From Corbicula japonica (Eukaryota; Mollusca; Bivalvia; Venerida; Cyrenidae): a stretch of 64,000 nucleotides of DNA. The first letter of the stretch is position 1, and the number at the start of each line of letters is the position of its first letter. The notes under the pieces are model-generated. The model ran no database searches and had not been told where the DNA came from. It saw only the letters and a program-made list of their open reading frames with translations. The position numbers were made by a program, and so were the translations under genes. The stretch spans positions 1-64,000 of the forward strand of contig JAZAYU010000256.1 in assembly GCA_038501625.1 (NCBI GenBank), in the 5' to 3' direction. This document shows positions 27,867 through 60,343 of the stretch, piece by piece.

Positions 27867-27870
27867 AGCA

Positions 27871-27949
27871 TTGTTACAACCCGTTTTGTAATAAAAACGA
27901 GAATTGTAATAATTATAACAATTCTCGTTTTTATTACAAAACGGGTTGT
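27871..27949. repeat. Left terminal palindrome of the large element
   Basis: TTGTTACAACCCGTTTTGTA runs on to 'aaaacgagaattgt', followed after a few A/T bases by the reverse complement. The end can therefore fold on itself. Its inner half merges directly into the first satellite unit. Confidence 0.85.
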
Positions 27950-30900
27950 GAGGTATCAACCACTTTTGTAATAACGAGAATTGTAATAAAATATCAAACT
28001 TAGTTATTTTGCCAAAAAAGTTTCTATCCGTAGAATAATTGTTTCTTTAGACAGAAATTAGCACGTCCTTATTGTCCTGAATTGCCCTTGATTATTTAGA
28101 AACCTTCAAGTATTGATTAAAACTCAAAGTATTTATGAATAAACTTAAGTGTTAGATTTTATTACATTTTACACTTTTATTACAAAACGGGTTGCAAGGT
28201 ATCAACCACTTTTGTAATAACGATAATTGTAATAAAATGTGAAACTTAGTTATTTTTGCTAAAAATTGTCTAACCATTGAATAACTGTTGTTTTTGATAA
28301 ATATTAGCACGTGCTTATTGACCTGAATTGCCATTAGTCATTTTGAGACCGTTATATGTTGATTACAACTCAACTTATATATGAATGAACTTCAGTGTTA
28401 GATTTTATAACATCTTGAAATATTATTACAAAACGGGTTGTAAGGTATCAACCACTTTTGTAATAACGAGAATTGTAATAAAAAGTCAAACTTAGTTATT
28501 TTTGCCCAAAAAGTGTCTATCCGTAGAATAACTTTTTCTTTCGACAGAAATTAGAACGTCCTTATTGACCTGAATTGCCCTTGATTATTTAGAGACCGTC
28601 AAGTATTGATTAAAACTGAAATTATTTATGAATGAACTTGTGTTTGATTTTATTACATTTTACACTTTTATTACAAAACGGGTTGCGAGGTATCAACCAC
28701 TTTTGTAATAACGAGAATTGTAATAAAATGTGGAACTTAGTTATTTTTGCCAAAAAATTGTCTAACCATTGAATAACTGTTGTTTTAGATAAATATGCCA
28801 CTGGTCATCTTGAGACCGTTATATGTTGATTACAACTCAATTTATATATGAATGAACTTCAGTGTTAGATTTTATAACATCTTGAAATTTTATTACAAAA
28901 CGGGTTGTAAGGTATCAACCACATTTGTAATAACGAGAATTGTAATAAAATGTCAACCTTAGTTATTTTTGCCAAAAAAAGTGTCTATCCGTAGAATAAC
29001 TTTTTCTTTCGACAGAAATTAGCACGTCCTTATTGACCTGAATTGCCCTTAAATTATTTAGAGACCGTCAAGTATTGATTAAAACTAAAATTATTTATGA
29101 ATGCACTTAAGTGTTTAATTGTATTACATTTTACACTTTTCTTACAAAACGAGTTGCAAGGTATCAACCACTTTTGTAATAACGAGAATTGTAATAAAAT
29201 CTGGAACTTAGTTATTTTTGCCAAAAAATTGTCTAACCATTGAATCACTGTTGTTTTAGATAAATATTAGCACGTGCTTATTGACCTGAATTGCCATTGG
29301 TCATTTTGAGACCGTTATATGTTGATTACAACTCAACTTATATATGAATGAACTTCAGTGTTAGATTTCATAACATCTTGAAATTTTATTACAAAACGGG
29401 TTGTAAAGTATCAACCACTTTTGTAATAACGAGAATTGTAATAAAATGTCAAACTTAGTTATTTTTGCCCAAAAAGTATCTATCCGTAGAATAACTTTTT
29501 CTTTCGACAGAAATTAGCACGTCCTTATTGACCTGAATTGCCCTTGATTATTTAGAGACCGTCAAGTATTGATTAAAACTGAAATTATTTATGAATGAAC
29601 TTGTGATTGATTTTATTACATTTTACACTTTTATTACAAAACGGGTTGCAAGGTATCAACCACTTTTGTAATAACGAGAATTGTAATAAAATGTGGAACT
29701 TAGTTATTTTTGCCAACAAATTGTCTAACCATTGAATAACTGTTGTTTTAGATAAATATGCCAATGGTCATTTTGAGACCGTTATATGTTGATAACAACT
29801 CAATTTATATATGAATGAACTTCAGTGTTAGATTTCATAACATCTTGAAATTTTATTACAAAACGGGTTGTAAGGTATCAACCACTTTTGTAATAACGAG
29901 AATTGTAATAAAATGTCAAACTTAGTTATTTTTGCCAAAAAAGTGTCTATCCGTAGAATAACTTTTTCTTTCGACAGAAATTAGCACGTCCTTATTGACC
30001 TGAATTGCCCTTGATTACTTAGAGACCGTCAAGTATTGATTAAAACTGAATTTATTTATGAATGAACTTGTGTTTGATTTTATTACATTTTACACTTTTA
30101 TTACAAAACGGGTTGCAAGGTATCAACCACTGTTGTAATAACGAGAATTGTAATAAAATCTGGAACTTAGTTATTTTTGCCAAAAAATTGTCTAACCATT
30201 GAATAACTGTTGTTTTAGATAAATATGCCATTGGTCATTTTGAGACCGTTATATGTTGATTACAACTCAACTTATATATGAATGAACTTCAGTGTTAGAT
30301 TTTATAACATCTTGAAATTTTATTACAAAACGGGTTGTAAGGTATCAACCACTTTTGTCATAACGAGAATTGTAATAAAATGTCAAACTTAGTTATTTTT
30401 GCCCAAAAGGTGTCTATCCGTAGAATAACTTTTTCTTTCGACAGAATTTAGCACGTCCTTATTGACCTGAATTGCCCTTGATTATTTAGAGACCGTCAAG
30501 TATTGATTAAAACTCAAATTATTTATGAATGAACTTGTGTTTGATTTTATTACATTTTACACTGTTATTACAAAACGGGTTGCAAGGTATCAACCACTTT
30601 TGTAATAACGAGAATTATAATAAAATGTGGAACTTAGTTATTTTTGCCAAAAAATTGTCTAACCATTGAATAACTATTGTTTTAGATAAATATGCCATTG
30701 GTCATTTTGAGACCGTTATATGTTGATTACAACTCAACTTATATATGAATGAACTTCAGTGTTAGATTTTATTACATCTTGAAATTTTATTACAAAACGG
30801 GTTGTAAGGTATCAACCACTTTTGTAATAACGAGAATTTTAATAAAATGTCAAACTTAGTTATTTTCGCCAAAAAAAAGTGTCTATTCGTAGAATAACTT

Positions 30901-33900
30901 TTTCTTTCGACAGAAATTAGCACGTCCTTATTGACCTGAATTGCCCTTGATTACTTAGAGACCGTCAAGTATTAATTAAAACTGAATTTATTTTTTAATG
31001 AACTTCAGTGTTTGATTTTATTACATTTTACACTTTTATTACAAAACGGGTTGCAAGGTATCAACCACTTTCGTAATAACGAGAATTGTAATAAAATGTC
31101 AAACTTAGTTATTTTTGCCAAAAAAAGTGTCTATCCGTAGAATAACTTTTTCTTTCGACAGAAATTAGCACGTCCTTATTGACCTGAATTGCCCTTGATT
31201 ATTTAGAGACCGTCAAGTATTGATTAAAATTCAAATTATTTATGAATGAACTTGTTTTTGATTTTATTACATTTTACACTTTTATTACAAAACGGGTTGC
31301 AAGGTATCAACCACTTTTGTAATAACGAGAATTATAATAAAGTGTGGAACTTAGTTATTTTTGCCAAAAAAATTGTCTAACCATTGAATAACTATTGTTT
31401 TAGATAAATATGCCATTGGTCATTTTGAGACCGTTATATGTTGATTACAACTCAACTTATATATGAATGAACTTCAGTGTTAGATTTTATTACATCTTGA
31501 AATTTTATTACAAAACGGGTTGTAAGGTATCAACCACTTTTGTAATAACGAGAATTGTAATAAAATGTCAAACTTAGTTATTTAGTTATTTTTGCCAAAA
31601 AAGTGTCTATCCGTAGAATAACTTTTTCTTTCGACAGAAATTAGCACGTCCTTATTGACCTGAATTGCCCTTAAATTATTTAGAGACCATCAAGTATTGA
31701 TTAAATCTGAAATTATTTATGAATGCACTTAAGTGTTTGATTGTATTACATTTTATAATTTTCTTACAAAACGGGTTGCAAGGTATCAACCACTTTTGTA
31801 ATAACGAGAATTGTAATAAAATGTGGAACTTAGTTATTTTTGCCAAAAATTGTCTATCCATTGAATAATTGTTGTTTTAGATAAATATTAGCACGTGCTT
31901 ATTGACCTGAATTGCCATTGGTCATTTTGAGACCGTTATATGTTGATTACAACTCAACTTATATATGAATGAACTTCAGTGTTAGATTTCGTAACATCTT
32001 GAAATTTTATTACAAAACGGGTTGTAAAGTATCAACCACTTTTGTAATAACGAGAATTGTAATAAAATGTCAAACTTAGTTATTTTTGCCAAAAAAGGGG
32101 CCTATTCGTAGAATAACTTTTTCTTTCGACAGAAATTAGCACGTCCTTATTGACCTGAATTGCCCTTGATTATTTAGAGACCGTCAAGTATTGATTAAAA
32201 CTGAAATTATTTATGAATGAACTTGTGTTTGATTTTATTACATTTTACACTTTTATTACAAAACGGGTTGCAAGGTATCAACCACTTTTGTAATAACGAG
32301 AATTGTAATAAAATGTGGAACTTAGTTATTTTGCCAAAAAATTGTCTAACCATTGAATAACTGTTGTTTTAGATAAATATGCCATTGGTCATTTTGAGAC
32401 CGTTATATGTTGATGACAACTCAATTTATATATGAATGAATTTCAGTGTTAGATTTTATAACATCTTGAAATTTTATTACAAAACGGGCTGTAAGGTATC
32501 AACCACTTTTGTAATAACGAGAATTGTAATAAAATGTCAAACTTATTTATTTTTGCCTAAAAAAGGGTCTATCCGTAGAATAACTTTTTCTATCGACAGA
32601 AATTAGCACGTCCTTATTGACCTGAATTGCCCTTGATTATTTAGAGACCGTCAAGTATTGATTAAAACTCAAATTATTTATGAATGAACTTAAGTGTTTG
32701 ATTTTATTGCATTTGACACTTTTATTACAAAACGGGTTGCAAGGTATCAACCACTTTTGTAATAACGAGAATTGCAATCAAATGTGGAACTTAATTATTT
32801 TTGCCAAAAAATTTTTTAACCATTGAATAACTGTTGTTTTAGATAAATATTAGCACGTGCTTATTGACCTGAATTGCCATTGGTCATTTTGAGACCGTCA
32901 TATATTGTTTACAACTCAACTTATATATGAATGAACTTCAGTGTTAGATTTTATAACATCTTGAAATTTTATTACAAAATGGGTTGTAAGGTATCAACCA
33001 CTTTTGTAATAACGAGAATTTTAATAAAATGTCAAACTTAGTTATTTTTGCCAAAAAAGTGTCTATCCGTAGAATAACTTTTTCTTTCGACAGAAATTAG
33101 CACGTTCTTATTGACCTGAATTGCCCTTGATTATTTAGAGACCATCAAGCATTGATTAAAACTGAAATTATTTATGAATGAACTTAAGTGTTTGATTTTA
33201 TTACATTTTACACTGTTATTACAAAACGGGTTGCAAGGTATCAACCACTTTTGTAATAACGAGAATTGTAATAAAATGTTGAACTTAGTTATTTTTGCAA
33301 AACAATTGTCTAACTATTGAATAACAGTTGTTTTAGATAAATATTAGCACGTGCTTATTGACCTGAATTGCCATTGGTCATTTTGAGACCGTTATATGTT
33401 GATTACAACTCAACTTATATATGAATGAACTTCATTGTTAGATTTTATAACATCTTGAAATTTTATTACAAAACGGGTCGTAAAGTATCAACCACTTTTG
33501 TAATAACGAGAATTGTAATAAAATGTAAAACTACTCTTTTATTGCCGTAAATAGTCTATATTTTTTAATAACTTTTTTTTTGCAAAACTAAATTGTCCTT
33601 GATCATTTGAAATCGTCAGTTGTTGATTAAAAATCAGCTTATATATATGAACGAACATATTATTACATAATGAAATTTTATTACAAAACGGGTTGAAAGG
33701 TATCAACAACTTTTGTAATAACGAGAATTGTAATAAAATGTCAAACTTAATTATTTTTGCCAAAAAGTTTCTATCCGCAGAATAACTGTTTTTTTTAGAT
33801 AGAAATTAGCACGTCCTTATTAGCCTGAATTGTCCTTGATCATTAAGAGACCGTCAAGTATTGATTAAAACTCAAATTATATATGAATGAACTTAAATAT

Positions 33901-36900
33901 TAGATATTTTTACATTTTGAAATTTTATTACAAAACGGGTTGTAAGATATCAACAACTTTTGTAATAACGAGAGTTGTAATAAAATGTGAAACTGCGTTC
34001 TTATTGTCGTAAAGAGTCTCTATTTTTTAATAACTGTTATTTGTTTTATTTCAGACAGAAATTAGCACAAACTGAATTGTCCTTGATCATTTGGAACCGT
34101 TAGATTTTGATTAAAACTGAGCTTCCTAATTGAAAATGATCATTTGATTAAATTATGCTCTCTTTTCCTCTCTACTTTTTGGCTGTGTGGGGAGGCTGAG
34201 TTTTCTGAGTGGGGCTATTCCTGGTATGCATATTTTACTTTTTTTATACATGAACGAACATTGTATTATATTATGAAGTTTTATTACAAAACGGGTTGAA
34301 AGTTATCAACCACTTTTGTAATAACGAGAATTGTAATAAAATGTGAAACTGCGTTCTTATTGCCGTAAAGAGTCTCTATTTTTTAATAACTGTTTTTTTT
34401 TTATTTCAGACAGAAATTAGCACACACTAAATTGTCATTGATCATTTGAAACCGTTTGGTTTTGATTAAAACTGAGCTTATACATGAACGAACATTATAT
34501 TACATTATGAAATTTTATTACAAAACGGGTTGAAACGTATCAACCACATTTGTAATAACGAGAATTGTAATAAAATGTGAAATTATCTTTTTATTGCCAT
34601 ATAAAAAATCTCTATTTTTAATAACTGTTTTTTAGAGAGAAATGAGCACATTCTGAATTGTCCTTGATCATTTGAAACGTCAGATGTTGATTAAAACTCA
34701 GCTTATATATGAACGAACATGTTATCACATTTTGAAAGTTTATTACAAAACAGGTTGAATATCATCAACCACTTTTGTAAAAACGAGAATTGTAATGAAA
34801 TGTAAAACTTAGTTATCTTTTGCCAAAAAAGTGTCTATCCGTAGAATAACCTTTTCTTTCGACAGAAATTAGCACGTCCTTACTGGTCTGAATTGCCCTT
34901 GATTATTTAGAGAGCGCCAAGTACTGATTAAAACTTAAATTATTTATGAATGAACTTGTGTTAGATTTTATTACATTTTACATTTTTATTACAAAACGGG
35001 TTGCAAGGTATCAACCACTTTTGTAATAACGAGAATTGTAATAAAATGTGAAACTTACTTATTTTTGCCAAAAAAATTGTCTATTCGTAGAATAACTTTT
35101 TCTATCAACAGAAATTAGCACGTCCTTACTGGCCTGAATTGCCATTGATCATTTTGAGACCGTTAAGTGTTGATTAAAACTGAATTTATTTATGAATGAC
35201 CTTAAGTGTTAGATTTTATAACATCTTGAAATTTTTTTACAAGACGGGTTGTAAGGTATCAACCACTTTTGTAATAACGAGAATTGTAATAAAATGTAAA
35301 ACTACTCTCTTATTGCCGTAAATAGTCTATATTTTTAATAACTGTTGTTTTTTTTCGAAACTGAATTGTCCTTGATCATTTGAAACCGTCAGTTGTTGAT
35401 TAAAAATCAGCTTATATATGAACAAACATATTATTACATAATGAAATTTTATTACAAAACGGGTTGAAAGGTATCAACAACTTTTGTAATAACGAGAATT
35501 GTAATAAAATGTCAAACTTAGTTATTTTTGCCAAAAAGTTTCTATCCGCAGAATAACTGTTTTTTTTTTTTTAGATAGAAATTAGCACGTCCTTATTGGC
35601 CTGATTTGTCCTTGATCATTTAGAGACCGTCAAGTATTGATCAAATTATATATGAATGAACTTAAATATTAGATATTTTTACATTTTGAAATTTTATTAC
35701 AAAACGGGTTGTAAGATATCAACCACTTGTAATAACGAGAATTGTAATAAAATGTGAAACTGCTTTTTTTTGCCCAAAAAGTTTCTATCCGCTGAATAAC
35801 TGTTTCTTCAGACAGTAATTAGCACGTCCTTATTGGCCTGAATCGTCCTTGATCATTTAGAGACCGTCAAGTATTCATTAAAACTCAAATTATATATGAA
35901 TGAACTTAAATATTAGATATTTTTACATTTTGAAATTTTATTACAAAACGGGTTATAAGGTATCAACCACTTTTGTAATAACGAGAAATGTAATAAAATG
36001 TGAAACTGCGTTCTTATTGCCGTAAAGAGTCTCTATTTTTAATAACTGTTTTTTATTATTTCAGACAGAAATGAGCACATAGTGAAATGTCCTTGATCAT
36101 TTCAAACCGTCAGGTTCTGAATAAAACTGAGCTTCCTAATTGAAATTGATCATTTGATTAAATTATGCTCGCTTTTCCTCTCTACTTTTTGGCTGTGTGG
36201 GAAGGCTGTGTTTTCTGAGTGTGGCAATTCCTGGTATGCATATTTTACCTTTTTATACATGAACGAACATTGTATTATATTATGAAGTTTTATTACAAAA
36301 CGGGTTGAAAGGTATCAACCACTTTTGTAATAACGAGAATCGTAATAAAATGTGAAACTGCGTTCTTATTGCCGTAAAGGGTCTCTATTCTTTAATAACT
36401 GTTTTTTTTTTATTTCAGACAGAAATTAGCACACACTAAATTGTCATTGATCATTTGAATCCGTCTGGTTTTGATTAAAACTGAGGTTATACATGAACGA
36501 ACATTATATTACATTATGAAGGTTTATTACAATACGAGAATTGTAATTAAATGTGAAACTTTTACTTATTTTTGCCAAAAAAGTGTCTATCCGTAGAATA
36601 GCTTTTTCTTTCGACAGAAATTAGCACGTCCTTATTGACCTGAATTCACCTTGATTATTTAGAGACCGTCAAGTATTGATTAAAACTGAAATTATTTATG
36701 AATACACTGAAGTGTTAGATTTTATTACATTTTACACTTTTATAACAAAACGGGTTGCAACGTATCAACCACTTTTGTAAAAACGAAAATTGTAATAAAA
36801 TGTGAAACTTAGTTTTTTGTTTCCCAAAAAGTGTCTATCCATAGAATAACTGTTGTTTTAGATAGAAATTAGCACGTGTTTATTGTCCTGAATTGCAATT

Positions 36901-37872
36901 GATCATGTTGAGACCGTTATATGTTGATTAAAACTCAACTTATGTATGAATAAACTTCAGTGTTAGATCTTATAACATCTTGAAATTTTATTACAAAACG
37001 GGTTGTAAGGTATCAACCACTTTTGTAATACCGAGAATTGTAATAAAATGTGAAACTACTCTCTTATTGCCGTTAAGAGTCTCTATTTTTTACAACTGTT
37101 TTTTTTATATTTCAGACAGAAATTAGCACATACTGAATTGACCTTTTTCATTTGAAACCGTCTGGTTTTGATTGAGACTGAGCTTATACATGAACGAAAA
37201 TTATATTAGATTATGAAGTTTTATTACAAAACGGGTTGAAAGGTATCAACCACTTTTGTAATAACAAGAATTGTAATAAAATGTAAAACTTAGTTATTGT
37301 CTATCCGTAGAATAACTTTTTCTTTCGACAGAAATTAGCACATCCTTATTGGCCTGAATTGCCCCCTGATCATTTACAGACCGTCAAGTATTCATTAAAA
37401 ATCAAATTATTTATGAATGAACTTATTTGTTAGGTTTTATTACATTTTAAACTTTTATTACAAAACGGGTTGCAAGGTATCAACCACTTTTGTAATAACG
37501 AGAATTGTAATAAAATGTGAAACTTAGTTATTTTTGCCAAAAAGTTTCTATCCATATTATAACTGTTGTAGATAGCAATTAGCACGTGCTTATTGACCTG
37601 AATTGCCATTGATCATTTTGAGACCGTTAAGTGTTGATTAAAACTCAACTGATATATGAATGAACTTTACATTTTATGACATCTTGAAATTTTATTACAA
37701 AACGGATTGTAAGGTATCAACCACTTTTGTAATAACGAGAATTGTAATAAAAGTTAAAACTACTCTCTTATTGCCGTAAAGAGTCTATATTTTTTAACAA
37801 CTTGTCCTTGATCATTTGAAACCGTCAGGTGTTGATTACAACTCTCAGGTGTTGATTAAAACTCAGCTTATA
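27950..37872 (+). repeat. Satellite array, left arm of copy A
   Basis: About 41 units of 220-250 bp. Nearly all carry TTATTACAAAACGGGTTG, 'gaaaggtat' or a variant, CAACCACTTTTGTAATAA, then CGAGAATTGTAATAAAAT. The first and second of these pair to form a hairpin. Up to about 33450 two linker types alternate ('cacgtccttattgacctgaattgcccttgattatttagag' and 'cacgtgcttattgacctgaattgccattggtcattttgag'), giving a dimer period near 470-490 bp. From about 33500 other linker types appear ('cttattgccgtaaagagtctctatttttt'). Two units, near 34120-34250 and 36125-36255, contain an extra stretch of about 105 bp. Short frames such as 31676-31861 are part of the satellite. Confidence 0.92.
36521..36560 (+). 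repeat. Satellite unit that has lost its hairpin
   Basis: Here 'tttattacaa' runs straight into 'tacgagaattgtaat'. The pairing arms and loop present in other units are missing, while both flanks are kept. The same deletion is present at the equivalent place in copy B (about 49650). Confidence 0.75.
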
Positions 37873-37896
37873 TAACAACAACAACAACAACAACAC
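37873..37896 (+). repeat. (AAC)n microsatellite at the arm/core junction, copy A
   Basis: 'acaacaacaacaacaacaac' directly follows the last satellite fragment ('aaactcagcttatata'). The same junction is at 51001-51022 in copy B. Confidence 0.9.
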
Positions 37897-40819
37897 AATA
37901 CAGGTTCCCCAAATGAATGTTTGTGTCAAAATATGTTTGCAAAATGTGTTATTTGTTGATTGAATTCTTTGTTGATATTTGTCTGTAAAGATATATAAAG
38001 AACGGGAACGGGATAAATTTTGACCGAAGGATCATAATTTGAACAAACTTGAAAGAGATCCAGAAGACAATGCTTAATGCAATATTTAAGAACTTTTGAG
38101 GCCTTTGGATTAAGGGAAGATTTATAAAGTTTTTTCTATATTTCTTCTATGTAAAACATATGACATCTAGAGCGTGGGGAATTTTGACCCAGTACTATGA
38201 TCTGAGGATCTCTAGCCGATATATTATGCAAACTATCTAAGCTGTTCTCGTCTTGTTGTTAACGAAAAGTTGATTTCTTATAATTCATGATTGTTTTTGT
38301 TGCAGTTGCTCAACTGCCTCAACATCGTGGCAGCTTTATTCAATGGACACCTATGAAAAGTTTAATCAACTTTGTTAAAATGATTTAAGGGAGAGTTTGT
38401 TTAAAAGAAATGTTGACGTAGTAACTTCCGAAGACTGGCGACCTTCCCTTCAGGAATTACATTAGATATAAACTTAAAAAATCGTACAGAATTCAAGATT
38501 ATCTCAAGAGTTGTATAAAATTTGGTAATGCTCAGGCTGACACCACGATCAGTTTTTTTTCAAATGAGAAGTTTCATGGATAGGTATCACATGCACGTAT
38601 TTTAGAATAGGATAGCCTTAAGAGAAAAAGAGAAACAGATACTGAAATAAACCACAAATGCACAATAATTTGTAACAGAGTTACCAACATCCACAGCCTA
38701 TAGGAACTGTTAGAAGAGGCATATCTTACCGCGGATACACTATAGTAAGATCATAGATATACTTTGGGTCGACTACGATGAGATCACAGGCAGACTAAAG
38801 ACTATGGATAGATAAAAATGGAGGAACACAAACATGGACACGACACGTCGTCTTTTAATAGTAAACATTTGAACACCGTTATTTCACAATCCCTTGATGA
38901 AAAAAGTTAAGAATCAGACACAAACTAAACCCTCCAATAAACCATGTTGACAATGAACATACACAGGTGATCTTGACTTTGGCGCTAGGGGTCTAACTGT
39001 TTCGCACGACACAGTATAATTAATCAGCGCTGTAATTAATCAGCATACATGTACCTATATCAAAAAAGAGGGCTATATGACCCAAAGTCGCTCACCCGAG
39101 TCAAAGTGGGTAGGGAAAAAAACCCAATGCGCGTTGTGCCAGGTGAGCTAAAAAGTAAGTCATTTGGTCAAAATCAAGGTCAATTTAATGTCAATAATAC
39201 TTTCTACGTGGTCTAAATTTCAAGACTACAAATTTTCTAAAAACAAGAAAGTACATCACTGGGTCTAATTCTAGGTTAGTTCAAATCTGCATTTTGAACT
39301 GTGCATATGGTTTAAATTTCAAACCTCTAGCTTCAATAGCTGTGAACAAGGTCCAATTTTCAAGATGTAGCTTCAAATACAAGAAAGTAGGTAACTCGGT
39401 CAAAATCTAGCTCAGTTCATATCAAAGTTAAATTCTGCATCTCAAACTGTGCACACGGTCCAAATTATAAGCTGTATATGACTTTATTTGACTTGAACAA
39501 TCTTAGTGCAGGTCTACTAGACAATGCTGATCACCAAATATGGCAGCTTTAAGTCATATGATTTCTTCCAAAAAGTTTTTATATTTGCTTCATATATAAC
39601 TTAGTGTAAAACGTGAACCCCGAGGCAGGGCCATTTTTGACCCAGGGTCCAAGATTTGAACAATTTTGCTGGAGGTCTACCGGACATGCTGCATACCAAA
39701 TATGTAAACTAAGATTTTTAAAGGTTTCCTTTAATAAGTTTATGTAAAATCAAGTGAACCTTGTAGGGGGCTAGTTTTGACCCCAGCAACATAACTTGAT
39801 CAATCTAAATGGGCTTGCATCGCGAGGCCGTCCTTTATATGTGTCCAGATGTACCCGGATGTAGTGAAATACCAGTGGAATAGTATGCTTTGCTCTTTTC
39901 ATTGTTTTATGTAGACCCCAGGTCTTTTCATTCAGTTATGGATATTTAGCCAGGCCACAAACGGTCCTTTTGGTCCGCCCTTTCAATTACGTAAATTGCT
40001 CTTCAATTTCCGGAATCTTCCGTATCTTCCGTTATAAAACGTGGCGTTTACCATATACGGAAATACTGTTTCCGATCGAAATATAGCTTCAATAAACAAT
40101 TGTTATTAACCATGATTTTTTAAAACACCAAATTTAGTAGAATATTGCATTTTTCAGTTCCTTGATAATGTCTTATTTACAAAGAAAGGATCTTTTCCAT
40201 AAAATGAAGTGAACAAAGGCTGTATGAAAGGCAAACATTTGGCATAGTTCCACATTCATTTTAAAGTAAATAGTATTGTACCATGTAACAAAACTGCAGC
40301 ATATTAATAATCTTGCAACGAAATTAAGAAAGCTGTTTAATGAGATGTTGTTTCTAACATACACTTTAAAAGCTGTATCCAACAAATTCATTGCCTAGGC
40401 GTTTATAACTTTTTAAAGTATGGATACACTGATTCTATATTAATTATATAATTTTTATATAAAATGGTCTTTTTTAAATAAGAAAAAAAGGAAACATTCG
40501 TTTGTCGAATAAGCTATATTTGAATAGCGTGTTGTGACTCGGGAAGCTTGGCGCCATTTAAAGTTGCAACGCTCATGCATGTTGCATTTTTCTTTACAAA
40601 TGCATTTCTGATTTTGTTCTTAAAATATATGTCTTGCTATGTATGTTCCTTTGTTAAATTGTTTTCCCAAGTCTGAAATTCTGATCAGTAAAATCAGCGA
40701 AGTTCAGACCAATGAATGTATGTTAAGACTTTCACACTTTGGAATACGGAACAGTCGACCAAAACAGATGTAAATCTTTAAATGCAGAGTGTGCATATAA
40801 TAATTATTATATTGAATGC

Positions 40820-41160
40820 AGAGTTGAATGTTGAATGCAGAGCTGTGCATAATTTGAATGCAGCGCTAAATGTTGAATGCAGAGCTGTGCAAGAATTGAA
40901 TGTAGAGCTGAATGTTGAATCCAGAGCTGTGCGAAAATTAAACGCAGAGCTGAATGTTAAATCCAGATCTGTGCAATAAATTGAGTGTAGAGCTGAATAT
41001 CGATTGCAGAGCTGTGAAAGAATTTAATGCAGAGCTGAATGTTGAATGCAGAGCTGTGCAAGAATTCAATGTAGCGCTGAATATCGATTGCAGAGCTGTG
41101 CAACAATTGAATGCAGAGCTGTGCAATAATTCATTGCAGAGCTGAATGTTGAATGCTGAA
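40820..41160 (+). repeat. 42-bp tandem repeat, copy A
   Basis: About eight units around 'gaatgttgaatgcagagctgtg'. The 42-bp period equals 14 codons (LNxELNVECRAVQE), so frames are locally open on both strands but broken by stops. It is a minisatellite rather than a gene. The same array is at about 53946-54286 in copy B. Confidence 0.8.
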
Positions 41161-41626
41161 CTCTGGATTTGTTGCGTCTGCCAATACAGATCTGAATGCA
41201 GAACCCATAGCTATGCGACGAAATTTCGAACTTCGATCTACGATCTCAGAGCCAACTTCATGCAAATTCACACGCGATGGAAACTTATGGTTAGTTCAGT
41301 AAGATAAATTAAAACAATTTCAATTGAATCAAAAGTGAACATGCTAGTTTCAGTGAAATATTTATTTTATTTCATATTTTCATACTAAAAACTTATATTT
41401 TGACGAAAACAAAGAGCTGTCACTTTAAAGTGACTTATGTCCCCAAACGTAGCTTTAAATTCGAATTGGCATTAACATTTATTAAATATGTATTGGTAAT
41501 AGTTGAATGGAAACCATATGCTTGTGATTACCTCCATAACCTGGCCTTGATCACAATCACTTCAGTAAATCTTTTATTCAATTTTGACTAGTGGTTGTGA
41601 CTATGAAAAAGGGCAATATTTCTGTT

Positions 41627-41627
<1 letters not shown>

Positions 41628-41692
<65 letters not shown>

Positions 41693-45281: not shown

Positions 45282-45291
45282 TGACATAAAA

Positions 45292-48700: not shown

Positions 48701-51000
48701 ATAGAAATTAGCACGTCCTTATTGGCCTGATTTGTCCTTGATCATTTAGAGACCGTCAAGTATTGATCAAATTATATATGAATGAACTTAAATATTAGAT
48801 ATTTTTACATTTTGAAATTTTATTACAAAACGGGTTGTAAGATATCAACCACTTGTAATAACGAGAATTGTAATAAAATGTGAAACTGCTTTTTTTTGCC
48901 CAAAAAGTTTCTATCCGCTGAATAACTGTTTCTTCAGACAGTAATTAGCACGTCCTTATTGGCCTGAATCGTCCTTGATCATTTAGAGACCGTCAAGTAT
49001 TCATTAAAACTCAAATTATATATGAATGAACTTAAATATTAGATATTTTTACATTTTGAAATTTTATTACAAAACGGGTTATAAGGTATCAACCACTTTT
49101 GTAATAACGAGAAATGTAATAAAATGTGAAACTGCGTTCTTATTGCCGTAAAGAGTCTCTATTTTTAATAACTGTTTTTTATTATTTCAGACAGAAATGA
49201 GCACATAGTGAAATGTCCTTGATCATTTCAAACCGTCAGGTTCTGAATAAAACTGAGCTTCCTAATTGAAATTGATCATTTGATTAAATTATGCTCGCTT
49301 TTCCTCTCTACTTTTTGGCTGTGTGGGAAGGCTGTGTTTTCTGAGTGTGGCAATTCCTGGTATGCATATTTTACCTTTTTATACATGAACGAACATTGTA
49401 TTATATTATGAAGTTTTATTACAAAACGGGTTGAAAGGTATCAACCACTTTTGTAATAACGAGAATCGTAATAAAATGTGAAACTGCGTTCTTATTGCCG
49501 TAAAGGGTCTCTATTCTTTAATAACTGTTTTTTTTTTATTTCAGACAGAAATTAGCACACACTAAATTGTCATTGATCATTTGAATCCGTCTGGTTTTGA
49601 TTAAAACTGAGGTTATACATGAACGAACATTATATTACATTATGAAGGTTTATTACAATACGAGAATTGTAATTAAATGTGAAACTTTTACTTATTTTTG
49701 CCAAAAAAGTGTCTATCCGTAGAATAGCTTTTTCTTTCGACAGAAATTAGCACGTCCTTATTGACCTGAATTCACCTTGATTATTTAGAGACCGTCAAGT
49801 ATTGATTAAAACTGAAATTATTTATGAATACACTGAAGTGTTAGATTTTATTACATTTTACACTTTTATAACAAAACGGGTTGCAACGTATCAACCACTT
49901 TTGTAAAAACGAAAATTGTAATAAAATGTGAAACTTAGTTTTTTGTTTCCCAAAAAGTGTCTATCCATAGAATAACTGTTGTTTTAGATAGAAATTAGCA
50001 CGTGTTTATTGTCCTGAATTGCAATTGATCATGTTGAGACCGTTATATGTTGATTAAAACTCAACTTATGTATGAATAAACTTCAGTGTTAGATCTTATA
50101 ACATCTTGAAATTTTATTACAAAACGGGTTGTAAGGTATCAACCACTTTTGTAATACCGAGAATTGTAATAAAATGTGAAACTACTCTCTTATTGCCGTT
50201 AAGAGTCTCTATTTTTTACAACTGTTTTTTTTATATTTCAGACAGAAATTAGCACATACTGAATTGACCTTTTTCATTTGAAACCGTCTGGTTTTGATTG
50301 AGACTGAGCTTATACATGAACGAAAATTATATTAGATTATGAAGTTTTATTACAAAACGGGTTGAAAGGTATCAACCACTTTTGTAATAACAAGAATTGT
50401 AATAAAATGTAAAACTTAGTTATTGTCTATCCGTAGAATAACTTTTTCTTTCGACAGAAATTAGCACATCCTTATTGGCCTGAATTGCCCCCTGATCATT
50501 TACAGACCGTCAAGTATTCATTAAAAATCAAATTATTTATGAATGAACTTATTTGTTAGGTTTTATTACATTTTAAACTTTTATTACAAAACGGGTTGCA
50601 AGGTATCAACCACTTTTGTAATAACGAGAATTGTAATAAAATGTGAAACTTAGTTATTTTTGCCAAAAAGTTTCTATCCATATTATAACTGTTGTAGATA
50701 GCAATTAGCACGTGCTTATTGACCTGAATTGCCATTGATCATTTTGAGACCGTTAAGTGTTGATTAAAACTCAACTGATATATGAATGAACTTTACATTT
50801 TATGACATCTTGAAATTTTATTACAAAACGGATTGTAAGGTATCAACCACTTTTGTAATAACGAGAATTGTAATAAAAGTTAAAACTACTCTCTTATTGC
50901 CGTAAAGAGTCTATATTTTTTAACAACTTGTCCTTGATCATTTGAAACCGTCAGGTGTTGATTACAACTCTCAGGTGTTGATTAAAACTCAGCTTATATA
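45792..51000 (+). repeat. Satellite array, left arm of copy B (partial)
   Basis: Unit-by-unit copy of 32674-37872, including the two units with the 105-bp insert (about 47245 and 49250) and the unit without a hairpin (about 49650). Confidence 0.93.
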
Positions 51001-54000
51001 ACAACAACAACAACAACAACACAATACAGGTTCCCCAAATGAATGTTTGTGTCAAAATATGTTTGCAAAATGTGTTATTTGTTGATTGAATTCTTTGTTG
51101 ATATTTGTCTGTAAAGATATATAAAGAACGGGAACGGGATAAATTTTGACCGAAGGATCATAATTTGAACAAACTTGAAAGAGATCCAGAAGACAATGCT
51201 TAATGCAATATTTAAGAACTTTTGAGGCCTTTGGATTAAGGGAAGATTTATAAAGTTTTTTCTATATTTCTTCTATGTAAAACATATGACATCTAGAGCG
51301 TGGGGAATTTTGACCCAGTACTATGATCTGAGGATCTCTAGCCGATATATTATGCAAACTATCTAAGCTGTTCTCGTCTTGTTGTTAACGAAAAGTTGAT
51401 TTCTTATAATTCATGATTGTTTTTGTTGCAGTTGCTCAACTGCCTCAACATCGTGGCAGCTTTATTCAATGGACACCTATGAAAAGTTTAATCAACTTTG
51501 TTAAAATGATTTAAGGGAGAGTTTGTTTAAAAGAAATGTTGACGTAGTAACTTCCGAAGACTGGCGACCTTCCCTTCAGGAATTACATTAGATATAAACT
51601 TAAAAAATCGTACAGAATTCAAGATTATCTCAAGAGTTGTATAAAATTTGGTAATGCTCAGGCTGACACCACGATCAGTTTTTTTTCAAATGAGAAGTTT
51701 CATGGATAGGTATCACATGCACGTATTTTAGAATAGGATAGCCTTAAGAGAAAAAGAGAAACAGATACTGAAATAAACCACAAATGCACAATAATTTGTA
51801 ACAGAGTTACCAACATCCACAGCCTATAGGAACTGTTAGAAGAGGCATATCTTACCGCGGATACACTATAGTAAGATCATAGATATACTTTGGGTCGACT
51901 ACGATGAGATCACAGGCAGACTAAAGACTATGGATAGATAAAAATGGAGGAACACAAACATGGACACGACACGTCGTCTTTTAATAGTAAACATTTGAAC
52001 ACCGTTATTTCACAATCCCTTGATGAAAAAAGCTAAGAATCAGACACAAACTAAACCCTCCAATAAACCATGTTGACAATGAACATACACAGGTGATCTT
52101 GACTTTGGCGCTAGGGGTCTAACTGTTTCGCACGACACAGTATAATTAATCAGCGCTGTAATTAATCAGCATACATGTACCTATATCAAAAAAGAGGGCT
52201 ATATGACCCAAAGTCGCTCACCCGAGTCAAAGTGGGTAGGGAAAAAAACCCAATGCGCGTTGTGCCAGGTGAGCTAAAAAGTAAGTCATTTGGTCAAAAT
52301 CAAGGTCAATTTAATGTCAATAATACTTTCTACGTGGTCTAAATTTCAAGACTACAAATTTTCTAAAAACAAGAAAGTACATCACTGGGTCTAATTCTAG
52401 GTTAGTTCAAATCTGCATTTTGAACTGTGCATATGGTTTAAATTTCAAACCTCTAGCTTCAATAGCTGTGAACAAGGTCCAATTTTCAAGATGTAGCTTC
52501 AAATACAAGAAAGTAGGTAACTCGGTCAAAATCTAGCTCAGTTCATATCAAAGTTAAATTCTGCATCTCAAACTGTGCACACGGTCCAAATTATAAGCTG
52601 TATATGACTTTATTTGACTTGAACAATCTTAGTGCAGGTCTACTAGACAATGCTGATCACCAAATATGGCAGCTTTAAGTCATATGATTTCTTCCAAAAA
52701 GTTTTTATATTTGCTTCATATATAACTTAGTGTAAAACGTGAACCCCGAGGCAGGGCCATTTTTGACCCAGGGTCCAAGATTTGAACAATTTTGCTGGAG
52801 GTCTACCGGACATGCTGCATACCAAATATGTAAACTAAGATTTTTAAAGGTTTCCTTTAATAAGTTTATGTAAAATCAAGTGAACCTTGTAGGGGGCTAG
52901 TTTTGACCCCAGCAACATAACTTGATCAATCTAAATGGGCTTGCATCGCGAGGCCGTCCTTTATATGTGTCCAGATGTACCCGGATGTAGTGAAATACCA
53001 GTGGAATAGTATGCTTTGCTCTTTTCATTGTTTTATGTAGACCCCAGGTCTTTTCATTCAGTTATGGATATTTAGCCAGGCCACAAACGGTCCTTTTGGT
53101 CCGCCCTTTCAATTACGTAAATTGCTCTTCAATTTCCGGAATCTTCCGTATCTTCCGTTATAAAACGTGGCGTTTACCATATACGGAAATACTGTTTCCG
53201 ATCGAAATATAGCTTCAATAAACAATTGTTATTAACCATGATTTTTTAAAACACCAAATTTAGTAGAATATTGCATTTTTCAGTTCCTTGATAATGTCTT
53301 ATTTACAAAGAAAGGATCTTTTCCATAAAATGAAGTGAACAAAGGCTGTATGAAAGGCAAACATTTGGCATAGTTCCACATTCATTTTAAAGTAAATAGT
53401 ATTGTACCATGTAACAAAACTGCAGCATATTAATAATCTTGCAACGAAATTAAGAAAGCTGTTTAATGAGATGTTGTTTCTAACATACACTTTAAAAGCT
53501 GTATCCAACAAATTCATTGCCTAGGCGTTTATAACTTTTTAAAGTATGGATACACTGATTCTATATTAATTATATAATTTTTATATAAAATGGTCTTTTT
53601 TAAATAAGAAAAAAAGGAAACATTCGTTTGTCGAATAAGCTATATTTGAATAGCGTGTTGTGACTCGGGAAGCTTGGCGCCATTTAAAGTTGCAACGCTC
53701 ATGCATGTTGCATTTTTCTTTACAAATGCATTTCTGATTTTGTTCTTAAAATATATGTCTTGCTATGTATGTTCCTTTGTTAAATTGTTTTCCCAAGTCT
53801 GAAATTCTGATCAGTAAAATCAGCGAAGTTCAGACCAATGAATGTATGTTAAGACTTTCACACTTTGGAATACGGAACAGTCGACCAAAACAGATGTAAA
53901 TCTTTAAATGCAGAGTGTGCATATAATAATTATTATATTGAATGCAGAGTTGAATGTTGAATGCAGAGCTGTGCATAATTTGAATGCAGCGCTAAATGTT

Positions 54001-54752
54001 GAATGCAGAGCTGTGCAAGAATTGAATGTAGAGCTGAATGTTGAATCCAGAGCTGTGCGAAAATTAAACGCAGAGCTGAATGTTAAATCCAGATCTGTGC
54101 AATAAATTGAGTGTAGAGCTGAATATCGATTGCAGAGCTGTGAAAGAATTTAATGCAGAGCTGAATGTTGAATGCAGAGCTGTGCAAGAATTCAATGTAG
54201 CGCTGAATATCGATTGCAGAGCTGTGCAACAATTGAATGCAGAGCTGTGCAATAATTCATTGCAGAGCTGAATGTTGAATGCTGAACTCTGGATTTGTTG
54301 CGTCTGCCAATACAGATCTGAATGCAGAACCCATAGCTATGCGACGAAATTTCGAACTTCGATCTACGATCTCAGAGCCAACTTCATGCAAATTCACACG
54401 CGATGGAAACTTATGGTTAGTTCAGTAAGATAAATTAAAACAATTTCAATTGAATCAAAAGTGAACATGCTAGTTTCAGTGAAATATTTATTTTATTTCA
54501 TATTTTCATACTAAAAACTTATATTTTGACGAAAACAAAGAGCTGTCACTTTAAAGTGACTTATGTCCCCAAACGTAGCTTTAAATTCGAATTGGCATTA
54601 ACATTTATTAAATATGTATTGGTAATAGTTGAATGGAAACCATATGCTTGTGATTACCTCCATAACCTGGCCTTGATCACAATCACTTCAGTAAATCTTT
54701 TATTCAATTTTGACTAGTGGTTGTGACTATGAAAAAGGGCAATATTTCTGTT

Positions 54753-54809
<57 letters not shown>

Positions 54810-55038
54810 GGACAAAAAGCGCAGGCATGATTGATGACAATCACTTCAGTTAAGGTTTCTTGCTAATTGGACCACTGGTCGTACAGATGAAGCGCAAACG
54901 AGATTGTAAAGGATGGGCAGACAGACGGACAGACGGTAAGATGGTCGAACACATGGACAGTGTAGTGCTCAAGAAGTTTTGATGACAATCATTTAAGTTT
55001 AATTTAATTCTGACATATAATTGTTGAGATTATTGAGT
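51001..55038. other. Core of the large element, copy B
   Basis: Copy of 37873-41940 with the same (AAC)n junction (51001-51022), 42-bp minisatellite (about 53946-54286) and a shorter GACA tract (54754-54813). Same short frames, no recognisable gene. Confidence 0.75.
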
Positions 55039-58000
55039 AATCTAACAATAAGTTCATTCATAAATAATTTAAGTTTAAATCAACACTTGACGGACTTTTA
55101 AGGATCAAAGACAATTCAGGTCAATAACCACGTGCTAATTTTTGTTTAAAAAAACAGTTATTTAATGGATATAAACTTTTTGGCAAAAATAACTAAGTTT
55201 TTATTACAAATCTCGTTATAGCAAAAATCGTTTAATTCAACCCGTTTTGTAATAAAATGTCAAAATGTAACAAAATCCAACACTTAAGTTCAATCGTATA
55301 TAATTTGTTTCAATCAACACTTTACGGTCTCACAATAATCAAGAACAATTCAGCTCAACAAGGACGTGCAAATTTCTGTCTAAAGAAACAGTATTTTTAT
55401 GGATAGAAACTTGTTTGCAAAAATAACTAAGTTTCACATTTTATTACAATTCTCGTTATTACAAAAGTGGTTGATACCTTTCAACCCGTTTTGTAATAAA
55501 ATTTCAAAATGTTATAAAATGTTTGTTCAAATATCCGCTGAATTGTAGTCAACACCTGACGGTTTCAAAATCATTAAGGACAATTCAGCATGTGCTTATT
55601 TCGGTCGGAAAAATAATTTCTATTAAAAAAAACAGTTATTCTATGAATAGAATCATTTTTTGAAAAAAACTAAGTTTCACATTTTATTACAATTCTCGTG
55701 ATTACAAACGTCGTTAATACCTTTCAACCCGTTTTGTAAAAAAATTTCAAAATGTAATAAAATCTAACACTTAAGTTTATTCATATATAATTTGAGTTTT
55801 AACCAATACTTGACATTCTCTAAATAATCAAGGGCAATTCAGGTCAATAAGGACGTGCTAATTTCTGTCTAAACAACAGTTATTCTACGGACAGAAACTT
55901 TTTGGCAAAAGAAAAACAAGAACAAGTTATACATTTTATTACAATTCTCGTTATCACAAAATTGGTTGATACCTTTTAATCCGTTTTGTAATAAAATTTC
56001 AAAATGTAATAAAATCTAACACTTAAGTTCATTCATATATAATAATTATTTGAGTTTTAGTCAATATCTGACGGTCTCAAAATGATCAAGTACAATTCAG
56101 GCCAGTAAGAACGTGCTAATTTCTATCTTAAAAAACAGTTATTCTACGGATAGAAACGTTTATGGCAAAAATAACTAAGTTTCACATTTTATTACAATTC
56201 TCGTTATTACAAAAGTGGTTGATACCTTTCAACCCGTTTTGTAATAAAATTTCAAAATGTTATAAAATGTTCGTTCAAATATCAGCTGAATTGTAGTCAA
56301 CACCTGACGGTTTCAAAATCATTAAGGACAATTCAGCATGTGCTTATTTCGGTCGGAAAAATAATTTCTATTAAAAAAACAGTTATTCTATGAATAGAAT
56401 CATTTTTTGAAAAAAAACTAAGTTTCACATTTTATTACAATTCTCGTGATTACAAACGTCGTTAATACCTTTCAACCCGTTTTGTAATAAAATTTCAAAA
56501 TGTAATAAAATCTAACACTTAAGTTTATTCATATATAATTTGAGTTTTAACCAATACTTGACATTCTCTAAATAATCAAGGGCAATTCAGGTCAATAAGG
56601 ACGTGCTAATTTCTGTCTAAACAACAGTTATTCTACGGACAGAAACTTTTTGGCAAAAGAAAAACAAGAACAAGTTATACATTTTATTACAATTCTCGTT
56701 ATCACAAAATTAGTTGATACCTTTTAATCCGTTTTGTAATAAAATTTCAAAATGTAATAAAATCTAACACTTAAGTTCATTCATATATAATAATTATTTG
56801 AGTTTTAGTCAATATCTGACGGTCTCAAAATGATCAAGTACAATTCAGGCCAGTAAGAACGTGCTAATTTCTATCTAAAAAAACAGTTATTCTACGGATA
56901 GAAACGTTTATGGCAAAAATAACTAAGTTTCACATTTTATTACAATTCTCGTTATTACAAAAGTGGTTGATACCTTTCAACCCGTTTTGTAATAAAATTT
57001 CAAAATGTAATAAAATATTCGTTCATATATAAGCTGACTTTTAATCAACACTAGACGGTTTTAAATAATCAATGACAATTAAGTATGTACTAATTTCTTT
57101 CTAAAAAAAGTTATTAAAAAATAGAGACTCTTTATGGCAATAAAAACAAATTCACATTTTATTACAATTCTCGTTATTACAAAAGTGGTTGATACCTTTC
57201 AACACGTTTTGTAATAAAATTTCATATTGTAATAAAATGTTTGTTCATGTATAAGCTCAGGTTTAATCAAAACCTGACGGTTTCAAATGATCAAGGACAA
57301 TTCAGTATGTGCTAATACATGTATCTCTCTGAAATAAAAGTCGGTTATTAAAAAATAGAGACTCTTTACGGCAATAGGAACGCAGTTTCACATTTTATTA
57401 CAATTCTCGTTATTACAAAAAATGTAGATACGGTACAACCCGTTTTGTAATAAAACTTCAAAATGTAAAAAAAAAATATAACACTTAAGGTAAGAGCTGT
57501 GTAATAGGCACTATTAAGAATCCAACATCTGATTATATTTTCATCAACTGCTTCATACCACTGACTTGTATGCAAAATTTTAATGATTTTCACCGTGTAG
57601 TTTTTGAGATTTTTAGCTTTTTTATTTAAAAAAGTGAGAAAAAAACGTGTAAGTATCCAAATTCTTTAATCTGTGACAAAATTTTTTGTTATTGATAAAT
57701 TCAACCCTAATTTTTTACAGTTTATCCAAAATATGGTATATTTTACTAAACCAATTTAAGATATAATATATAAATACAGAATTTATCTTCAAATGACATT
57801 TTTTGACCAAATAATTTTAAAAATGCATTTTTTATATTTCGCGAGACTAAATTAATGAAAATTGTGCAAAATCCTGATTGGTGCAATATACCAAACTTTA
57901 CCATTTTTAACTATATACCTTAAACAAAATTTAAACAAAATTTCAGAGAAGTTTACCGTCCAGTTTTAGAAATTTTCAAATTGATGACTTGAATAAACAC

Positions 58001-60264
58001 TATTCTGATAGCGAATACCCCTTTAATCTTGATTATTTTGCTTATTTTAGTTTAAATCATGAGAATTTTATATTCAATGACAGAATTACACAGGAAAAAA
58101 AGATACATTCCAATTATTTAAGCTCTAGGCTTACAAAAAAATTAGCTTCCAGTCCTCTTGCATGACAGAAATCTACCCTAATTTACTACTATAGTTACCT
58201 CCCTTCGATACTCTTCTGGATAAAGGTATTCATTACACAGCTCTTACCTTAAGTTCATTTATATATAATTTGAGTTTTAATGAATACTTGACGGTCTCTA
58301 AATGATCAAGGACAATTCAGGCCAATAAGGACGTGCTAATTTCTATCTAAAGAAACAGCTATTCTACGGATAGAAACTTTTTTGGCAAAAATAACTTAGT
58401 TTGACATTTTATTACAATTCTCGTTATTACAACGTTGGTTGATACCTTTCAACCCGTTTTGTAATAAAATTTCAAGATGTTATAAAATCTAACACTTAAG
58501 TTCATTCATATATAAATTGAGTTTTAATCAACATTTAACGATCTCAAAATGATCAATTGCAATTCAGGTAAATACGCACGTGCTTTACTCTATCTAAAAC
58601 AGTTATTCTATGGATAGAAACTTTTTGGCAAAAATAACTAAATTTCACATTTTATTACAATTCTCGTTATTACAAAAGTGGTTGAGAGACCTGGCAACCA
58701 GTTTTGTAATAAAAGTGTAAAATGTAATAAAATCTAACAATTAAGTTCATTCATAAATAATTTGAGTTTTAATGAATACTTGACGGTCTCTAAATGATCA
58801 GGGGCAATTCAGGTCAATAAGGACGTGCTAATTTCTGTCGAAAGAAAAAGTTATTCTACGGATAGAAGCGTTTGTGGCAAAAATAACTAAGTTTTACATT
58901 TTATTACAATTCTCGTTATTACAAAAGTGGTTGATACATTTCAACCCGTTTTGTAATAAAATTTCAAAATGTAATAAAATATTCGTTCATATATAAGCTG
59001 ACTTTTAATCAACACTAGACGGTTTTAAATAATCAATGACAATTAAGTATGTACTAATTTCTTTCTAAAAAAAGTTATTAAAAAATAGAGACTCTTTATG
59101 GCAATAAAAACAAATTCACAAGTTGAGTTGTAATCAACATATAACGGTCTCAAAATGACCAATGGCAATTCAGGTCAATAAGCACGTGCTAATATTTATC
59201 TAATTAAAAACAACAGTTATTCAATGGTTAGGCAATTGTTTGGCAAATATAACTAAGTTCCACATTTTATTACAATTCTCGTTATTACAAAAGTGGTTAA
59301 TACCTTGCAACCCGTTTTGTAATAAAAGTGTAAAATGTAATAAAATCAAACACTTAAGTTCATTCATAAATAATTTCAGTTTTAATCAATACTTGACGGT
59401 CTCTAAATAATCAATGGGATTTCAGGTCAATAAGCACGTGCTAATTTCTGTCGAAAGAAACACTTATTCTACGGATAGACACTTTTTTGGCAAAAATAAC
59501 AAAGTTTGACATTTTATTACAATTCTCGTTATTACAAAAGTGGTTGAGACCAGGCAACCCGTTTTGTAATAAAAGTGTAAAATGTAATAAAATCTAACAA
59601 TTAAGTTCATTCATAAATAAGTTGAGTTTTAATGAATACTCGACGATCTCTAAATGATCAGGGGCAATTCAGATCAATAAGGACGTGCTAATTTCTGTCG
59701 AAAGAAAAAGTTATTCTACGGATAGAAGCGTTTGTGGAAAAAAAACTAAGTTTTACATTTTATTACAATTCTCGTTATTACAAAAGTGGTTGATACATTT
59801 TAACCCGTTTTGTAATAAAATTTCATTATGTAATAGTATGTTCGTTCATATATAAGCTGATTTTTAATCAACAACTGACGGTTTCAAATGATCAAGGACA
59901 ATTCAGTTTTGAAAAAAACAAAACAGTTATTAAAAAAATATAGACTATTTACGGCAATAAGAGAGTAGTTTTAAATTTTATTACAATTCTCGTTATTACA
60001 AAAGTGGTTGATACCTTGCAACCCGTTTTGTAATAAAAGTGTTAAATGTAATAAAATCTAACTCTTAAGTTCATTCATAAACAATTTGAGTTTTAATCAA
60101 TACTTGACGGTTTCTAAATAATCAAGGGCAATTCAGGACAATAAGGACGTGCTAATTTCTGTCTAAAGAAACAATTATTCTACGGATAGAAACTTTTTTG
60201 GCAAAAATAACTAAGTTTGACATTTTATTACAATTCTCGTTATTACAAAAGTGGTTGATACCTC
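55039..60264 (-). repeat. Satellite array, right arm of copy B (inverted), longer than in copy A
   Basis: Same units as 41941-45202, plus about 1.94 kb (about 57155-59115). The extra stretch is bounded by two nearly identical blocks ('ttatggcaataaaaacaaattcaca' at 57131 and 59097). Copy A has only one of these. It includes the TTAA element at 57489-58248. Confidence 0.9.
57489..58248. mobile_element. TTAA-flanked transposon, copy 2, inserted in a satellite unit
   Basis: Inverted copy of the 16476-17257 element (760 bp) with ends GGTAAGAGCTGTGTAAT and complement. TTAA is at 57485-57488 and 58249-58252. Other units of the satellite show the unoccupied site 'aacacttaagttcattcata', which fixes the insertion point exactly. 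The GGGTTCAAATCCC word of copy 1 is missing here. Confidence 0.92.
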
Positions 60265-60343
60265 ACAACCCGTTTTGTAATAAAAACGAGAATTGTTATA
60301 ATTATTACAATTCTCGTTTTTATTACAAAACGGGTTGTAACAA
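60265..60343. repeat. Right terminal palindrome, copy B
   Basis: 79 bp, starting ACAACCCGTTTTGTAATAAA and ending in CGGGTTGTAACAA, then AGCA and unique sequence. Confidence 0.85.

Follow-up and report, generated by a model that had tools for sequence, protein, structure and literature searches.

A satellite-armed fold-back element in Corbicula japonica

The window analysed here is a stretch of 64,000 nucleotides of the bivalve Corbicula japonica (assembly GCA_038501625.1, contig JAZAYU010000256.1, positions 1 to 64,000 of the forward strand). Between positions 27871 and 60343 it holds long tandem arrays of a ~247-bp satellite unit, which stand in opposite orientation on either side of a core of about 4 kb and end in matching palindromes. 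We consider these sequences to belong, very probably, to a family of non-autonomous fold-back DNA transposons. Outside the arrays, a 381-aa glycosyltransferase sequence in one uninterrupted frame (8736-9878, Pfam Gly_transf_sug) has its nearest named relatives in the bivalves Mya arenaria, Dreissena polymorpha, Mercenaria mercenaria and Mactra antiquata, and the window is therefore animal DNA; exact-pattern scans of viral contigs and prokaryote genomes gave 0 places, as expected for such DNA.

The preliminary description of this locus had taken the whole interval for one very large element of 32 kb. However, a run of 500 N marks an assembly gap within it, and the sequences before (32674-45281) and after the gap (45792-60343) are near copies of each other: over 12,590 aligned bases there are 14 mismatches (five of them in the 45000 bin, which takes in the tail beyond the element), and in addition one indel of 1,964 bp, one of 28 bp in a microsatellite and a few smaller ones. 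The two near copies and the gap together indicate that the interval consists of one complete copy of 17.4 kb with both ends (27872-45280) and a second, truncated copy without its left end (45792-60342), and the actual size of the long form is 17.4-19.4 kb. The architecture proposed at the outset, i.e., a left satellite array of ~10 kb, an inverted right array, a 4.07-kb core and matching end palindromes, stands for the single copy (Table 1). Tandem Repeats Finder reports arrays with a period of ~234-252 bp, with gaps, at 27929-37761, 41941-45223, 45792-50887 and 55039-60285.

In each of the two copies the orientation of the units switches only once, from + in the left arm to - in the right arm. 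The terminal palindromes of 78 bp are near-perfect and match at both ends; the left one folds with -35.5 kcal/mol (mean of the shuffles -6.9, z -13.4), and 0 of 200 shuffles were as good. Left and right ends are 99% identical over 126 bp and 98% over ~330 bp, and across the arms the outermost left unit finds its best match in the outermost right one and vice versa (97%, the next best being 94%). The 1,964-bp difference between the copies runs between matching positions of two units.

Two sequences within the element have relatives elsewhere. The miniature inverted-repeat transposable element (MITE) nested in the second copy has a 93% relative at 16476-17257 of the window, and a part of the core (query positions 1594-1907, approximately window 39493-39806) has diverged relatives (~66-70%) in clusters elsewhere, e.g., in contigs C21 and C36.

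Table 1. Features of the two copies in the window.
Feature	Position	Strand	Remarks
Expected left target-site duplication CAGCAT	27866-27871	none	unmatched within the window
Left terminal palindrome, 78 bp	27874-27951	+	element proper starts TGTTACAAC at 27872
Left arm, 40 anchored ~247-bp units, all +	27872-37873	+	~10.0 kb; units carry hairpin and end-like motif
Core, 4,067 bp	37874-41940	+	includes an AGAC microsatellite and a tandem repeat of 42 bp; scanned frames without coding domain
Right arm of first copy, 13 anchored units, all -	41941-45280	-	
Right terminal palindrome of first copy	45201-45278	-	
Assembly gap, 500 N	45292-45791	none	
Second copy, partial left arm, 20 anchored units	45792-50999	+	left end lost in gap; inner border (50999) set by offset to first copy
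Core of second copy	51000-55038	+	
Right arm of second copy, 18 anchored units, all -	55039-60342	-	interrupted by MITE
Nested 760-bp MITE with TTAA duplications	57489-58248	+	in right arm of second copy; ends GGTAAGAGCTGT
Right terminal palindrome of second copy	60263-60340	-	last bases of the element GTTGTAACA, up to 60342
Expected right target-site duplication of second copy, AAGCAG	60343-60348	none	

The satellite unit contains a hairpin and an end-like motif

The unit carries a hairpin of ~44 bp, after which comes a stretch matching the end of the element. The alignment of the end with the consensus unit scores 41 in either polarity (shuffle maxima 28 and 25), and 70 of the 71 units examined (40 of the left arm, 13 and 18 of the two copies of the right arm) retain the end-like motif if as many as 6 edits are tolerated. 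Over the same 71 units the energy of the hairpin averages -8.9 kcal/mol, and one sampled hairpin has a fold z of -5.0 against shuffles. Columns 19-66 of the unit are conserved at 93.7% compared to 82.9% elsewhere (53 units), and at 93.0% compared to 80.7% once the units are collapsed at 95% identity, which leaves 27 of them; the test relied on here excludes the 18 columns that served as anchor. Taken from CAACC to GGTTG, the consensus monomer forms a cassette of 239 bp whose inverted ends match imperfectly (score 52, shuffle maximum 41), and successive cassettes are separated by a conserved 8-bp spacer, most commonly CAAGGTAT, AAAGGTAT or TAAGGTAT. The arms also have a higher-order structure, with periods of, e.g., 467 bp and with near-identical successive blocks of three units (748 bp).

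Copies of the family are dispersed and flanked by 6-bp duplications

In the genome searched (G000; 1,069,688,145 bases in 1,630 contigs) a 401-bp piece of the array gave 284 matches, most of which were not followed up singly. The 82-bp end gave 82 matches, which by hand count, with the palindrome matching twice, correspond to at least 40 end places, three of them in the window; this number is a lower bound, with 40 of 78 candidates scored. All 20 contigs scanned, each picked from the array matches, carry at least one outer end, so that arrays devoid of ends, which the preliminary description had named as the sign of an ordinary satellite, were not encountered among them. Stretches were fetched from the genome in three sets of 20, 8 and 5, and copies are designated below by their contigs. 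The fetched sequence contains both ends of 13 copies outside the window (397, 431, 631, 849, 929, 1,346, 1,526, 3,127, 7,168, 8,216, 8,886, 10,748 and 19,416 bp), and all counts of duplications refer to these. Those in C1, C36, C38, C39, C78, C155, C352, C1019, C171 and C291 were left out because one end, or an intact one, is absent from the fetched sequence, and the end places in C3, C6, C15, C61, C104, C252, C329 and a second one in C29 are listed but lie outside the fetched set.

Exact 6-bp target-site duplications flank the element at TGTTACAAC...GTTGTAACA in 10 of the 13 copies. When direct repeats of 3-10 bp were tried, only a length of 6 gave exact matches, while 3, 4, 5, 7, 8, 9 and 10 bp gave exact repeats in none of the 13; the chance of a 6/6 match is 0.0007 per pair of flanks. 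The flanks of C697 match at five of six positions and those of C4 at none, its left end seeming to have lost bases. The copies with a match of at least 5/6 point to a target preference: of these 11 copies, 10 have G at position 3 and 9 have C at position 4. An empty site is available for the copy of 8,886 bp (C28), which interrupts a 169-bp tandem repeat: when its flanks are joined and the duplication is kept once, they align across the junction to the left neighbour repeat (89% over 251 bp, with GAGCAG once) and also to a more distant repeat on the right (84% over 300 bp). This empty site is paralogous, not allelic.

The copies form a size series from a MITE of 397 bp to a satellite-armed element of 19.4 kb. 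The 397-bp copy, the smallest complete one fetched, is little beyond two end palindromes around one filler, whereas the copy in C28 is nearly all arm, with 21 + and 16 - units (37) and without the core. The 10.7-kb copy in C306 has 5 + and 23 - units (28), both it and the C28 copy having an exact duplication, and the copy in C4 has 14 + and 40 - units (54). C56 and C110 hold 5 and 6 units together with 6.4-7.2 kb of other DNA. When the first window copy is added to the 13, the orientation of the units switches exactly once from + to - in 12 of the 14 copies and more than once in none of them, the copy in C19 having a single unit only. The palindromy score reaches at least 0.90 at both ends in 8 of the 14, the other six having values of 0.42-0.87 at one or both ends.

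These results bear out much of what had been proposed from the window. Searches with the end and with the satellite unit both revealed dispersed sequences, copies with different flanks carry duplications, and the long form stands beside unrelated flanks (see below). The idea that array polarity, ends and flanks behave as one transposable unit is thus upheld for the family by its duplications and dispersed ends, and for the long form by inference. The comparison with empty sites, which had also been suggested, succeeded at the paralogous site in C28 and yielded none for the long form.

The long form stands beside unrelated flanks

The core (3,701-bp query, stretch 37900-41600) recurs at 100% in C256 (twice), C171, C4 and C291, and C306 holds 1,713 bp of it at 99%. 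The main alignments among these five long segments are 99.6-99.98% identical; aligned tails are lower where array lengths differ (95% between the two window copies). Between the flanks of C256, C4, C171 and C291 (1.7-9.3 kb each) all matches are short, with a maximum of 227 bp at 76%, and at least three distinct left flanks (C256, C4, C291) and at least three distinct right flanks (C256, C4, C171) can be told apart. C256, C171 and C4 have the nested MITE at one and the same junction; it has therefore most likely entered before the dispersal and then travelled along. Judging from the sequence comparison, the arms and their nested passenger most likely moved together. We infer the movement of the long form as one unit from this dispersal, not from a duplication.

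In the window itself, the outer flanks of the interval have no common 6-bp duplication (CAGCAT and AAGCAG, 4/6 match), nor have those of the first copy (CAGCAT and ATGACA, 1/6 match). A 4-bp duplication AGCA around 27871/60343 (chance 0.0065) was considered and dropped, since the duplication of the family is 6 bp long, the boundary lies one base further in and the outer flanks of the window copies mismatch. A duplication of 8 bp, also suggested by the flanks, was ruled out by the lack of exact 8-bp repeats in the 13 copies.

Coding content

The preliminary description had seen no transposase and had suggested looking for a longer copy with such a gene in its core. No such copy was found: the open frames scanned, those of the core and of the large copy in C1, contain no transposase, THAP-type or DDE included, and the genome was not searched for one. 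Two open frames in copies outside the window may be mentioned. One of 147 aa (L024:8614-9054, corresponding to G000:C1:17028614-17029054), in the large, few-unit copy in C1, has no Pfam match; it is possibly the beginning of a gene, and by eye it resembled that of a transposase. The other (L026:2880-3323, G000:C30), in the 3.1-kb copy, is presumably similar to the C-terminal part of a reverse transcriptase of long interspersed nuclear elements (LINEs).

Comparison with known elements

The comparisons made here and below with published elements are limited to excerpts of the cited papers. The closest precedent is Tetris of Drosophila virilis, a non-autonomous fold-back with ~220-bp tandem repeats in its inverted arms and no transposase found, in which a 37-bp stretch is common to terminus and repeat unit, allelic copies vary in unit number, and which gives rise to satellite arrays (PMC4079207). 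Its arms measure up to 1,735 bp and its duplications 8-10 bp, and its authors raise the possibility that transposition was disrupted by larger arrays (PMC4079207). The clam family resembles Tetris in being a non-autonomous fold-back with inverted tandem-repeat arms, in the sharing of sequence between terminus and unit, in its variable unit number, as a source of satellite arrays and in that no transposase was found; unlike Tetris it has arms of up to ~10 kb, 6-bp duplications, palindromic ends and a dispersed long form. The earlier remark that no named element with this combination was known needs amendment, since for tandem repeats in inverted arms Tetris is a named precedent. The family is new but its kind is already known; it is notable for satellite-scale arms on forms that are still spreading.

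Galileo of Drosophila, a member of the P superfamily with 7-bp flanking sequences and arms of up to ~1.26 kb (PMC3573991), has arm repeats that hold further binding sites of the THAP domain (PMC3688188). It shares with the clam family the long, internally repetitive inverted arms, but these are far shorter and its duplication is 7 and not 6 bp. Tm1 of root-knot nematodes carries 13-15-bp tandem repeats of variable number in its inverted ends and mostly has 9-bp duplications; an empty site was demonstrated and some members encode a putative transposase (PMC3169594). The variable number of repeats in inverted ends and the empty site are common to Tm1 and the clam family, which differ in repeat size and duplication length. 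Complete IS3EU families always have TA..TA termini and usually 6-bp duplications, and GingerRoot has 6-bp duplications and mostly TA..TA, occasionally TG..CA termini (PMC10045372, PMC12730594). The clam family combines the 6-bp duplication with TG..CA termini, the rarer type of GingerRoot and unlike the TA..TA of IS3EU. By termini and duplication length it may fit IS3EU/GingerRoot, a fit that is unproven, and membership is not established because no transposase was found in the clam family.

Members of the P superfamily make duplications of 7-8 bp, Helitrons and Helentrons are not known to make any, hAT ends are usually CA..TG, and Polinton ends are AG..CT. None of the 13 clam copies has an exact repeat at the 7-8 bp of the P superfamily or at the 8-10 bp of the Mutator superfamily, and the duplications in 10 of them do not agree with a Helitron or Helentron. 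Duplications of 6 bp are made by hAT6 (PMC12730594) and by Polinton (PMC10045372), too. Oyster Helitrons/Helentrons contain satellite-like tandem arrays in the central part of an element of the rolling-circle type (PMC11136912; PMC7492417); both these and the clam family are cases of satellite-like arrays on mobile elements of bivalves, but only the clam family has inverted arms and a duplication. A bivalve fold-back with satellite arms did not appear among the titles and abstract beginnings listed from the open-access literature searched by fold-back, inverted-repeat, bivalve, mollusc and satellite.

Other fold-backs in the window

Two further fold-backs, E2 and E3, are present in the window. 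E2 (18151-24318) has arms of 2.0-2.3 kb made of 102-bp GGCTGC-rich repeats, core halves that are 80% complementary and an outer domain of 38-bp repeats of opposite polarity; for its target-site duplication a 5-bp candidate, TTATA, was the only one and was rejected. E3 (62758-63921, 1.16 kb; 62752-63927 with its duplications) has the ends TACGAAAG...CTTTCGTA, a 6-bp duplication CTAAAG and arms of 8-bp-type repeats (ATCGTGA-type); with its TA..TA termini and this duplication it fits IS3EU. In both, the polarity of the motif in the short terminal domain is opposite to that in the long array (E2 left 70:5, right 5:83; E3 left 22:2, right 2:17). No sequence common to E2 or E3 and the satellite-armed family was seen.

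Interpretation and alternatives

Taken together, the results argue strongly for a family of non-autonomous fold-back DNA transposons, probably of the cut-and-paste type, whose inverted arms have grown to satellite-scale arrays. The features of fold-back DNA transposons, namely inverted tandem-repeat arms and defined ends with a duplication and an empty site, are all present, the duplication and the empty site being shown for the family and not for the long form itself. A transposase encoded elsewhere would act in trans and bind the end motif, and as the satellite units carry this motif, the arrays would be arrays of sub-terminal binding sites. The arms could gain and lose length through unequal exchange of units, in keeping with the 1,964-bp difference that runs from one unit to the matching position of another, and the 17-19-kb composite might still be excised and inserted as one unit.

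Several observations weigh against this interpretation. Neither of the two long copies with both ends, the first window copy and C4, has an intact duplication, the junctions of C4 reading AAGC then TTACAAC on the left and AAGCTC on the right. The element is broken by N gaps in C256 and C171, and C291 starts inside it; as identical repeats of 17-19 kb misassemble easily, such gaps and contig ends make the number of separate long insertions uncertain and the pairing of flanks unsafe. In the first window copy a stretch of 1,964 bp is missing, the nested MITE with it. Among the other copies, the flanks of C110 match at 3/6 only, and the six units of C697 are all +. Seven of the 71 unit hairpins are weaker than -5 kcal/mol, and in a conservation test anchored on the filler, with six units only, the hairpin block reached 83.9% against 78.6%, with the best window elsewhere. 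Finally, the 10 open frames of the core gave only sub-threshold matches and none to Pfam at the cut-off, and the 10 of C1 gave no Pfam match.

The lack of an intact duplication in the long copies has lowered our confidence in the transposon interpretation and raised that in a rival one, according to which only the small copies transpose, while the 17-19-kb form enlarged where it stood and was then multiplied by segmental duplication, or its dispersal is an artefact of the assembly. Of the four contigs with the long form, three are affected by N gaps or a contig end, which agrees with this, as does the suggestion of the Tetris authors on larger arrays (PMC4079207). Yet segmental duplication would bring the flanks along, and those of C256, C4, C171 and C291 have no match longer than the 227 bp noted above; the copy in C4 lies without any N inside a contig of 17.7 Mb, and a single target site that has lost 4 bases would account for its flanks; and C28 and C306, with 37 and 28 units, have exact duplications. 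We regard this rival as improbable. Membership in the Mutator (MuDR/FB) or P (Galileo) superfamily would be suggested by the fact that most fold-back elements seem to be Mutator members (PMC4079207) and that Galileo belongs to P (PMC3573991), but the 6-bp duplications and the lack of exact ones at 7-10 bp depart from Tetris (8-10 bp), Tm1 (commonly 9) and Galileo (7), which makes such an affiliation very hard to sustain. The least credible explanation, to which we give next to no weight, is an ordinary satellite array with a chance inversion: the arms are indeed long tandem arrays with higher-order periods and near-identical blocks, but the dispersed end palindromes and the single switch in most copies speak against it, and for the family it is refuted by the duplications and the empty site.

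Going beyond a fold-back transposon with enlarged arms, and starting from the cassette-like monomer and the 397-bp copy, one could imagine a transposable satellite, in which the transposase would act on the internal ends as well, the arrays would grow, shrink and disperse by events coupled to transposition, and hairpin and end motif would be kept by selection for binding. We consider this extension rather unlikely. If it were true, the route from MITE to satellite would be a common one in this genome, given that the window holds two more fold-backs with arms of tandem repeats, unrelated to this family.

Significance

How satellite repeats become scattered through genomes is an old question, and Tetris showed that repeats can grow inside a fold-back. 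Here, the copies in one genome range from a MITE of 0.4 kb to an element of 19.4 kb with ~54 units, including forms of 8.9 and 10.7 kb with exact duplications, and the route from transposon end to dispersed satellite is directly testable by insertion polymorphism. The series also provides hairpins, ectopic exchange and assembly breaks with a substrate of very large size. The family suggests that satellite DNA may be carried around the genome as part of a transposon.

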